Source: Desulfobacterales bacterium | GTDB lineage: Bacteria > Desulfobacterota > Desulfobacteria > Desulfobacterales > JAHEIW01 | Length of the DNA: 35,930 nt | Direction of reading: 5' to 3' | Assembly: GCA_030601425.1 (NCBI GenBank) | Contig: JAUVTR010000003.1 | Location: forward strand, 1 to 35,930 | Shown: positions 5,271-24,286 of the stretch, piece by piece | Layout: every line of letters begins with the position of its first letter | Position numbering within the stretch: the stretch's first letter is position 1 | Notes under the pieces: model-generated | What the model saw: only the letters and a program-made list of their open reading frames with translations | What the model was told of the DNA's origin: nothing | The model's database searches: none | Position numbers and translations under genes: made by a program

Positions 5271-5393
5271 GCTTCAGAAGACAGAGGTCAGAGGTCAGAT
5301 GACAGATGGAAAAAACTGGAAGATGAAGCACTCTATCTGACTTCTGTTTTCTGTCCTCTGTCATCTGCTTACTGACACCCGACACCTGAAACC
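5271..5393. repeat. Mirror-array element, class CAG/CTG (7-bp period)
   Basis: Left heptads GCTTCAG AAGACAG AGGTCAG AGGTCAG ATGACAG (5271-5305); right heptads CTATCTG ACTTCTG TTTTCTG TCCTCTG TCATCTG CTTACTG ACACCCG ACACCTG AAACC (from 5333). Confidence 0.85.
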
Positions 5394-9912: not shown

Positions 9913-10117
9913 GGTGTCAGGTGTCAGTGTTCAGGTGTCAGGTGCCATGAAGATACAGCGGACAGAGCACAGAAAACAAATGACAGCCTGCGACGAGCTC
10001 CCCTCGACAAACTCGGGGCTTGAGCCCGTCGCAACCAGTCGAGTCGAAGACAAAGGGCAGACCGTTTCTGTTTTCTGCCATCTGTTATCTGACACCTGAC
10101 ACCTGACACCAGAAACC
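9913..10117. repeat. Mirror-array element, class CAG/CTG (7-bp period)
   Basis: Left GTGTCAG GTGTCAG TGTTCAG GTGTCAG (9914-9941), then after a 3-nt slip GATACAG CGGACAG AGCACAG AAAACAA ATGACAG (9952-9986); right GTTTCTG TTTTCTG CCATCTG TTATCTG ACACCTG ACACCTG ACACCAG AAACC (10064-10117). Confidence 0.88.
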
Positions 10118-22615: not shown

Positions 22616-22670
22616 GTTAAATCTTTCTTTTTCTGGTTACGGCTTATAGCTTCCTGGCTGCATATATTAG

Positions 22671-22839
22671 GTTTCAGTGTTCAGGTGTCAGGTGTCAGCA
22701 AACAGATGACGGGGGATAGAAAACAGACTGCGACAAGCTCGGTCGAGTCGGGGTCGGATAGGCGATGTTTGATCCTCCGCTTGCAATATCTGTCTTTGAA
22801 CACTCGTCTGCACGGCCATAAGACCTGACACCTGAAACC
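22671..22839. repeat. Mirror-array element, class CAG/CTG (7-bp period)
   Basis: Left GTTTCAG TGTTCAG GTGTCAG GTGTCAG CAAACAG ATGACGG GGGATAG AAAACAG (22671-22726); right AGACCTG ACACCTG AAACC (22821-22839). Confidence 0.82.
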
Positions 22840-22876
22840 ATTTATTGTCTGGTTACCAGGAACGAGAGACTCGTTG

Positions 22877-22918
22877 CCAGTAGCCAGCGACCAGTCGCCA
22901 GTGACCAGCAACCAGCAG
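22877..22918. repeat. Tandem heptamer array, class CCAG, abutting the lexA stop codon
   Basis: CCAGTAG CCAGCGA CCAGTCG CCAGTGA CCAGCAA CCAGCAG, then CTA (lexA stop, minus strand). Confidence 0.9.
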
Positions 22919-23551
22919 CTACTTGATTCCTTCCGGTCCGCGGTGGATACCGATGATTTTGCCCTGGACCAGGACTTCGCCGAAGTCGTAGCGCATGGGG
23001 GAATAATCGGTATTTTCCGGACGCAGTTCGATGTGATCGTCACGTAAAAAAAAGCGTTTGACGGTTGCCTCTTCGCTGTTGATAAGCGCTACAATGATCT
23101 CGCCGTTTTGGGCGTACTGGCGCGGTTCGCAGATTGCCAGATCGCCGCTGAGGATGCCGGCATCCTTCATCGAATCGCCTTTGACGCGCAGAGCGAAAAT
23201 GTTTTGACTGCGGTAAACGGCGGCGTCCAGCACGATGCTGCCGTCCCACTCCGTCTGGGCATACATCGGCAGACCGGCTGTGACACGACCGATAATCGGG
23301 ATTTCGCGCCAGCGCTGCAAAGCCGCTGCCTCGTGGGCACGATTTAGCAGATAAACTTTACGGCTGTAACGCCCCTCCCGTTTCACATAGCCTTTTTCTT
23401 CCAGCACGCGCAAAAACTGAGCGATGGCGGCATGGCTGACCCCCAGATCCGCTGCAGCCTGTCGCAGGCTGGGGCACTGACCGGTTCTGGCGATTTCCCG
23501 CTGCAGATAATCCAAAAAACGCTGCTGTTTCGGTGTCAGCTGGGTTTGCAT
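22919..23551 (-). CDS. lexA: LexA-type SOS repressor
   Basis: 210 aa; N-terminal wHTH 'LTPKQQRFLDYLQREIARTGQCPSLRQAAADLGVS', cleavage site 'VTAG', catalytic 'GDSMKDAGI' and 'EEATVKRF'. Confidence 0.95.
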   Translation of the reverse strand: MQTQLTPKQQRFLDYLQREIARTGQCPSLRQAAADLGVSHAAIAQFLRVLEEKGYVKREGRYSRKVYLLNRAHEAAALQRWREIPIIGRVTAGLPMYAQTEWDGSIVLDAAVYRSQNIFALRVKGDSMKDAGILSGDLAICEPRQYAQNGEIIVALINSEEATVKRFFLRDDHIELRPENTDYSPMRYDFGEVLVQGKIIGIHRGPEGIK

Positions 23552-23566
23552 AATGTCTCCGATATA

Positions 23567-23634
23567 AGGTTTCAGGTTTCGGGTGTCAGGTGTCAGGAAT
23601 TAGTAGGTTTCAGGTGTCAGTGTTCAGGTGTCAG
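23567..23634. repeat. Heptad CAG arrays between lexA and the four-helix-bundle gene (left arm)
   Basis: GTTTCAG GTTTCGG GTGTCAG GTGTCAG then AGGTTTCAGGTGTCAGTGTTCAGGTGTCAG (23605-23634). Confidence 0.88.
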
Positions 23635-23673
23635 AATTGATAGAGCTTAAACCTGAACTCTGAAGCTTAAAAC

Positions 23674-24144
23674 CTACTCCGCAACTACAGGCCAGCCATG
23701 CGGTAGCGTTTCATCACTTGAGCCAAACACTGCCGGTTCCTCTGCTATCTGCCAGCGCTGCTCTCGCTCTGGGATCTTCCGTTCCAATGTTTTCTCCAGT
23801 CCATTCAGCATGCGAATGTATTCTTTGTAACGGCCCCTAAATTCTAAATATACCTCTTCTGAGATATATCCTTTGAGTTTCGCCATAAACAGGTGATGAA
23901 TTGTCTCACCTGCTTCGGCCCGGCTGCGATTTACGCCCTCAATTTTATTACGGATATGCCGATCATCATTGTTCTCGGCAAGCTGAGCAGGCGCGCTGTT
24001 TGACGAACGTCGTGCCTGGCTTCCCAACTCGTAATTCTCTTCTTGGGGCCACGCGTGTGTCAAATCGCAGACCGCAATGTGCAACCGGCACAACTTTTTA
24101 TAGACTTCAAGGTCCTCAACTTCCAAATAATTCTTCGCAGTCAC
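23674..24144 (-). CDS. Four-helix-bundle protein (S23 / TIGR02436-like)
   Basis: GTG start at 24144 with GGGAG RBS; VTAKNYLEVEDLEVYKKLCRLHIAVCDLTHAWPQEENYELGSQARRSSNSAPAQLAENN...; the track's N-terminal extension 'KVSGVSVQVSG' is translated repeat. Confidence 0.88.
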   Translation of the reverse strand: MTAKNYLEVEDLEVYKKLCRLHIAVCDLTHAWPQEENYELGSQARRSSNSAPAQLAENNDDRHIRNKIEGVNRSRAEAGETIHHLFMAKLKGYISEEVYLEFRGRYKEYIRMLNGLEKTLERKIPEREQRWQIAEEPAVFGSSDETLPHGWPVVAE

Positions 24145-24161
24145 TTCATCTCCCTCAAAAC

Positions 24162-24191
24162 CTGACACCTGAACACTGACACCTGAAACCT
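24162..24191. repeat. Right-arm inverted copy of 23605-23634
   Basis: CTGACACCTGAACACTGACACCTGAAACCT is the exact reverse complement (30/30) of 23605-23634. Confidence 0.93.
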
Positions 24192-24286
24192 TGCCAAGCA
24201 ATAATGTAAATGCTAATGTAAATATAAATGTATACATTCGGCATGTCAAGATCAAAAATTCAATAATGGGGTTTATTTGGAAAGGA

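Follow-up and report, generated by a model that had tools for sequence, protein, structure and literature searches.

S23-type genes between inverted heptad arrays as a likely new class of small mobile element

Genes of the PF05635/TIGR02436 (S23) family were found between inverted arrays of short tandem repeats, and we consider it likely that these units constitute a new class of small mobile element, in which the S23 protein probably acts as an array-binding mobility factor together with a host enzyme. Both the chemistry and the binding of S23 to its array are inferred. The element comprises an inverted pair of arrays, with the G-rich strand directed inward, and one S23/Avd-like gene between them. 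The family PF05635/TIGR02436 is an orphan of wide distribution, and its name, which dates from 1993, refers to insertions in rRNA. Because to our knowledge no mobile element combines an S23-type protein with heptad-array ends, we rate the S23-array element as an undescribed kind; in a stricter view it would be the general form of the 23S rRNA intervening sequence (IVS).

Results

The window, i.e. the whole stretch of DNA that was analysed (35,930 nucleotides of the Desulfobacterales genome G000), carries a complete gene-bearing element at 23566..24192 on the minus strand, consisting of array, S23 gene and inverted array, with the arms assigned by repeat comparison. It is flanked by a lexA-like gene and an ABC-exporter gene, and the sole gene between its arms is the S23/TIGR02436/PF05635 four-helix-bundle CDS (23674..24144, minus strand, 156 aa, GTG start). 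The 5' arm relative to this gene (24162..24191, minus strand) is composed of the heptads AGGTTTC AGGTGTC AGTGTTC AGGTGTC AG. Its perfect inverted copy, identical to the reverse complement at 30/30 positions, forms the 3' arm (23605..23634, plus strand, AGGTTTCAGGTGTCAGTGTTCAGGTGTCAG), and in both arms the G-rich strand points inward. The 3' arm is extended by an outer second array (23566..23597, plus strand, AGGTTTC AGGTTTC GGGTGTC AGGTGTC AG), which matches 24161-24192 to 84%. The sequence-only reading had claimed a perfect 30-bp inverted heptad repeat at 23605-23634 and 24162-24191 around one S23/TIGR02436-like gene, as well as the recurrence of a 25-mer of the arm at 9918-9942 in a gene-less element, and both claims held. 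The two arms are identical because both carry the consensus of a high-copy array family; taken alone the perfect 30-bp match is unremarkable and constitutes weak evidence, whereas the arrangement is far beyond chance. At the window's site, the orthologous position of G004 lacks both the element and such a gene, G001 contains an S23 gene that is truncated, belongs to another subfamily and has different arms, and the scaffold of G003 shows an N gap. The intergenic DNA of the G000 genus is too diverged to fix the exact insertion boundaries.

Profile searches matched the window protein to PF05635 (23S_rRNA_IVP; E = 3.5e-22, 79.1 bits, cut-off 33.8), its sole Pfam match, and to TIGR02436 (E = 3e-20, 72.5 bits, cut-off 24); no nuclease or polymerase domain was detected in it. 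Structure prediction (pLDDT 87) yielded a model of an S23-type four-helix bundle, whose best PDB matches were 2gsc (Xcc0516) and 2rld (BT_0352). Remoter structure matches comprised Avd (4dwl) and the Avd subunits of a DGR ribonucleoprotein (8ub7), with a TM of ~0.87 to the target. The PHROG 3206 (Avd) profile was matched with E = 1e-10 by a typical S23 protein and with 1e-5 by the window protein. Near-invariant S23 residues are Q43, R46, S50, N54, E57 and E80 (window numbering). Solved S23 relatives are pentamers, and the Avd of DGRs is known to handle nucleic acid. No S23 match was obtained by tblastn in phages, and comparison with a defence-system library gave nothing convincing.

The occurrence of inverted arrays was surveyed at the 30 best-per-genome loci and 79 further loci from relatives, plus loci from 80 named GTDB genomes. 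For each locus the 350-bp upstream flank was aligned to the reverse-complemented downstream flank, and a score of at least 17 was counted as a pass. The test was passed by 150/193 scorable S23 loci compared to 27/538 shifted-position controls; for the named genomes alone the value was 61/78 (Fisher p 7e-47), and for Y1_Tnp genes in the same genomes 3/29. No arms were found at 43/193 S23 loci at the threshold of 17. Chance or base composition as the cause of the flank matches was ruled out by shifted, mismatched and direct-orientation controls. The bacterial hosts of S23 include Bacteroidota, Bacillota, Cyanobacteria, Planctomycetota, Chloroflexi, Acidobacteria, Nitrospirota, Fibrobacter and Patescibacteria, the archaeal hosts Methanophagales. 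Evidently, the arrangement noted for the window is general across phyla and not window-specific.

The arms share several properties. Their best period was 7 in 225/290 and 8 in 42/290 cases, the array unit sometimes measuring 8-9 bp rather than 7, and the mean lag-7 identity was 0.59 vs ~0.25 at unrelated lags. On the inward strand G exceeded C in 270 arms and C exceeded G in 16. Whole elements are ~430-720 bp long (5th to 95th percentile). The arrays are not always of the GGTGTCAG type for which the sequence-only reading had proposed a survey: each S23 subfamily has its own, mostly 7-bp, unit. Since 7 is not a multiple of 3, the arrays often contain stop codons in all three frames (inward 35% and outward 24% of 290 arms, compared to 17% and 6% after shuffling), which possibly could make insertion at gene ends tolerable.

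Arm sharing between genera (score >=17) rose with S23 protein identity, from ~1% of the pairs below 40% and 6% at 50-55% to 46% at 60-70%, 71% at 70-80% and 93% above 80% (11,000 between-genera pairs; permutation test 0/2000). Among the 103 pairs with at least 60% protein identity, 92 had unrelated outer flanks, and 54/92 of these still shared their arms. For example, AGGCTGA arms are common to L031 and L037, AAGGATTCAAGGGGTC arms to L014 and L181 and, across phyla, AGGCACAAAGG arms to L010 from the window's order and the Nitrospirae locus L159. Arm sharing tracks protein identity at unrelated sites, and the arms are therefore inherited with the gene; gene and arms were moved together to unrelated sites, also across phyla. 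Orthology was rejected as the origin of the protein-arm correlation with respect to the exclusion of same-genus pairs of relatives and to the unrelated flanks of 92/103 close pairs. Flavobacterium loci from the named genomes were not treated as a single genus in this exclusion; several of the 11 related-flank pairs are theirs.

The window-type arms recur throughout G000. In the 3.1-Mb assembly the 23-mer AGGTGTCAGTGTTCAGGTGTCAG occurs 61 times exactly among 220 matches at <=3 mismatches, and the reversed-pattern control gave 0 matches. The full 30-mer was found in 10 distinct contexts within the G000 DNA that was retrieved. Where neighbouring arrays lay less than 700 bp apart (30 pairs), the orientation was inward ('+-') in 27 cases vs 3 for all other orientations. 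The DNA between the arms measures 12-234 bp in gene-less pairs and ~527 bp in the two S23-bearing pairs; in the G000 pairs examined (arms <700 bp apart) no gene besides S23 was evident there. Altogether, G000 contains ~100 gene-less copies with window-type arms, arranged in REPIN-like inverted pairs.

Three gene-less elements, to which no strand was assigned, lie in the window itself. The first (9914..10117) has inward GGTGTCAG arrays at both ends and a nested inner CAGANNA array. The second (22669..22839) adjoins the lexA-like gene and has the same arms as the window S23 element; the corresponding gap measures 317-336 bp in the window vs 125-135 bp in G001 and G004. The third (5274..5393) is a composite of a left CAGANNA-type and a right GGTGTCAG-type array. 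An inner CAGATGACAG-type array is present in many gene-less elements of G000, and its S23-bearing version was found in the congeners G001 and G003 (L310, L276). Next to the gene-less element 22669-22839, a period-7 array of another unit (22873-22919; CCAGTAG CCAGCGA CCAGTCG CCAGTGA CCAGCAA CCAGCAG) lies directly against the lexA-like gene's stop codon.

A second S23 gene with window-type arms was located at a different site, on contig C191, between unrelated genes. Its product shares 90% protein identity with the window S23 protein, and the dN/dS of 0.14 between both copies shows that S23 is under purifying selection. The C191 site exists in three states, namely gene-bearing in G000, gene-less with the same arms in the congener G003 and array-free in G005.

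In total G000 has 7 S23 genes; inverted arrays of short repeats enclose 7/7 of them, and five kinds of unit occur among these arrays. Arms of the CTAAAATGAG type (L003/L005) have ~50 additional places in G000; many of these dispersed copies form inverted, MITE-like pairs with a conserved interior. For the arm types of L001, L002 and L004, i.e. 3/5 types in G000, no dispersed copies were found. The L017 arm recurs at ~50 places in G045 and is absent from six other genomes, and two G019 arms are almost confined to G019. As side observations, L249-L257 represent the second dispersed gene-less family of G000, with CTAAAATGAG arms and the conserved interior GGTGTCGCTGCGCTCCATCTTTT ... AGAATTCCTTAAC, which is sometimes inverted, and very long arrays of GGTTGGATT units occur on the G019 contigs C46, C51, C63, C65, C73 and C86, several of them at contig ends, where the arrays may have caused assembly breaks.

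At sites that are nearly identical in all other respects, some replicons carry an element and others lack it, and the near-identical cyanobacterial plasmids show that the insertion lies exactly between the stop codon of one gene and the start codon of the next. In Trichormus variabilis (two strains) and Scytonema NIES-4073 the plasmid site is filled, and its empty counterparts are found on six plasmids of Tolypothrix, Nostoc, Microchaete and Aulosira with 97.4-97.7% identity to the filled ones. The junctions of the filled site read AAAAAGTAAT/AAATCAGAATTCAG ... TGAGTTCTTCTTT/GTAATTAAC and the empty site AAAAAGTAATTAAC, corresponding to a 5-bp target duplication (GTAAT) one base past the stop codon TAA in a single event. 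At the same insertion site, plasmid pC052_E of Nostoc C052 carries a decayed S23 element (L350): the left array and the 5' part of S23 were kept and the rest was deleted up to the start of the next gene, apparently at a short ATATATG-like homology. Furthermore, an element fills a 3-bp gap between two genes in Calothrix brevissima, a 12-bp gap between cas10 and cmr3 in Picosynechococcus PCC 7003 and the space between nrdA and nrdB in Nostoc edaphicum. Nostoc C052 and N. edaphicum are filled where the element is missing from C057 and ATCC 53789 carries one without a gene. Nostoc UHCC 0302 and ATCC 53789 each hold a filled plasmid together with a related unfilled one.

A target duplication was found in only 1 of ~7 comparisons; in the others 2-50 bp of the gap were lost or replaced, and no junctions of a uniform insertion chemistry are visible. 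In the wider set of loci the arrays commonly start within a few bases of a stop codon (in part of these data the minus-strand offsets are inaccurate by ~1 base). The exact placement between genes could result either from target choice or from purifying selection. Co-directional placement behind a gene was not significantly enriched (S23 141/15 vs other ORFs 149/28, p 0.10).

Apart from the array count at S23 genes against other positions, the sequence-only reading had called for a search for empty sites. Both were run, and every computable test it had asked for gave a favourable outcome. Its interpretation of the window element as a gene-bearing version of gene-less mirror arrays with a RAYT/REP-like layout is supported, the same site being found in gene-bearing and gene-less versions (G000 vs G003; Nostoc C052 vs ATCC 53789). 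Its suggested link of the four-helix-bundle protein to mobility is still inference as regards array binding and mobility role.

Discussion

In the mechanism that we propose, each S23 protein would recognise its own array as RNA or single-stranded DNA. Direct evidence for binding is lacking; it is inferred because it provides the simplest account of the protein-array association and of the Avd-like fold. The two arms would fold into a long hairpin in RNA or single-stranded DNA, and S23 would carry this hairpin nucleic acid to a strand exchange or insertion performed by a host enzyme. One S23 gene may also serve gene-less copies in trans. With no obvious promoter room and the usual co-directional position behind a host gene, the S23 gene is probably expressed by read-through from the transcript of that upstream gene. 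The strand-transfer enzyme is missing from the model because S23 has no known catalytic fold; reverse transcriptase (RT) and Y1 transposase do not fit the distribution, and the joining enzyme is probably a host protein. The imprecise junctions, the Trichormus case excepted, might indicate repair- or replication-based insertion and not a dedicated recombinase.

A bolder reading goes further, and as a joint claim we regard it as no more probable than its negation. It holds that S23 defines a new element class in bacteria and archaea based on an Avd-like, non-transposase oligomer, which would recognise subfamily-specific 7-bp arrays and mobilise its own gene as well as gene-less populations; insertion would take place between stop and start codons, and the 23S rRNA IVS and Avd would be offshoots.

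In functional terms, REPIN/RAYT (TnpAREP; PMC3116915, PMC2817692) comes closest to the S23 elements. Both combine a single protein gene with inverted repeats on either side of it, both have dispersed gene-less copies of the repeat in inverted pairs (here 220 array matches with 27 '+-' pairs), and in both protein and repeat are paired by type. In contrast, RAYT is a Y1 HUH nuclease and S23 an Avd-like four-helix bundle without nuclease motif, REPs are short palindromes whereas the S23 arms are period-7 direct tandem arrays, and each RAYT is single copy whereas S23 genes are multicopy in many genomes. In the Coxiella IVS a PF05635 S23 ORF lies between terminal inverted repeats with a 28-bp stem; IVSs are sporadically distributed, and their mobility was hypothesised (PMC4990558, citing 1990 and 1993 work, including Ralph and McClelland 1993). 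The window element likewise has terminal inverted repeats forming a stem around the S23 ORF. However, the IVS sits inside rRNA and the S23 elements described here between protein genes; no conserved 23S motifs were found in the S23 loci examined, and the window neighbours are lexA-like and ABC genes.

The Avd of DGRs (4dwl, 8ub7) has the same fold by structure search, and its PHROG profile matches S23. Unlike DGRs, the S23 element encodes no RT, and no template/variable repeats were seen around it, although no dedicated search was made; the sole RT match of G000 lies on contig C221 and not on the window contig. With classical IS/MITE elements the S23 element shares inverted ends and empty sites, the 5-bp duplication being restricted to one event and the other junctions being imprecise, but there is no transposase gene (DDE, HUH, serine or tyrosine) between the arms, only S23. 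Dispersed heptamer repeats are described for Beggiatoaceae, where TAACTGA was reported as direct repeats and discussed in terms of regulation (PMC4679880). These and the cyanobacterial STRRs, the reports on which likewise deal with direct repeats and regulation, resemble the arrays in being 7-bp tandem units that are intergenic, multicopy and of varied sequence; an S23 or four-helix protein is not mentioned in PMC4679880. No paper linking S23 to heptad arrays was found in the literature searched, which left out most subscription papers and all preprints.

Among the rival explanations the passenger model survives best, but we still regard it as unlikely. According to it, an unrelated transposase (Y1/RAYT or IS) encoded elsewhere moves the arrays, which serve as MITE-like ends, and S23 is cargo captured by chance. 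In its favour, a nuclease fold is missing from S23, 90/95 relatives have Y1_Tnp genes, gene-less copies greatly exceed gene-bearing ones and the 5-bp target duplication of the one case is IS-like. Against it, the captured gene is S23 across phyla, with a subfamily-specific array, and no other gene was evident inside the G000 pairs examined (arms <700 bp apart). The RAYT/Y1 version was rejected, given that Y1_Tnp genes themselves lack such arrays (3/29) and that four S23-carrying genomes (G016, G027, G047, G054) have no Y1_Tnp match.

A second alternative, retromobility, is very unlikely. Here, the Avd-like S23 would cooperate with an RT acting in trans, and movement would proceed via cDNA in a DGR-like or target-primed manner. 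The fold and profile likeness to Avd and the DGR ribonucleoprotein (4dwl, 8ub7; PHROG 3206) speaks for it, as do the inverted arms, which would yield a hairpin RNA. On the other hand, no PF00078 RT was found in the S23-rich genomes G045 (19 copies), G069 (16, single contig), G084 (14), G062 (12), G021 (11) and G088 (9), and the RT-free G045 carries ~50 dispersed arrays. The absence of RT rests on PF00078, a profile that a divergent RT could escape. As a separate observation, contig C1 of G053 contains 28 nearly identical RT genes of 484 aa, which probably arose in a group II intron burst.

Little also speaks for a non-mobile reading, which takes the arrays for sequences that act in cis on regulation or RNA processing, as hairpin insulators, RNase III sites or stop-codon insulators, and that were selected for next to S23 genes. 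It would fit that the window arms would pair in RNA at 27/30 bases, that 35% of the arms vs 17% of shuffled ones have three-frame stops on the inward strand, and that RNase III cleaves the Coxiella 23S IVS, which has an S23 ORF and 28-bp terminal repeats (PMC4990558). It is contradicted by elements present or absent at near-identical sites, by the recurrence of one gene together with its arms at unrelated sites of different phyla and by the dispersed gene-less copies. As sole explanation it is largely refuted; an RNA-processing role could coexist with mobility. A local origin, in which S23 or a partner drives slippage or fold-back synthesis of the arrays and the gene spreads by ordinary transfer or recombination, would agree with the very variable array length and unit and with arms matching better within one element than between distant relatives, but is most unlikely in view of the clean empty sites and of the arms that genera have in common at unrelated sites, the more so the closer their S23 proteins are in identity.

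The mobile-element reading, which we therefore prefer, gives PF05635/TIGR02436 a testable role together with cognate arrays and suggests an origin for many dispersed heptamer repeats. It leads to the question how DNA can move when no transposase is recognisable, and the elements may reveal the source of the Avd subunit in diversity-generating retroelements. Furthermore, it accounts for S23 in cas and nrd clusters by insertion. The 23S_rRNA_IVP family was listed as CRISPR-linked with 18 genes in cas loci (PMC3936711; see also PMC10910872), and the same family was found here between cas genes: S23 genes lie amid cas genes in Anabaena sp. 90, Pseudanabaena and Picosynechococcus PCC 7003, and the elements L344, L346 and L347 are located inside CRISPR-Cas operons of cyanobacterial plasmids (cas6/cas4, cas10/cmr3). 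Since these cas-locus copies have arrays and are absent from close relatives, insertion is favoured over a CRISPR function, and insertion into cas operons may explain the CRISPR-linked listing. The cas6-cas4 gap, which in Anabaena sp. 90 holds an S23 element, seems to collect elements; in Dolichospermum UHCC 0315A (L359) it holds a different hairpin repeat, GTAGGTTGGGTTG ... CAACCTAC.
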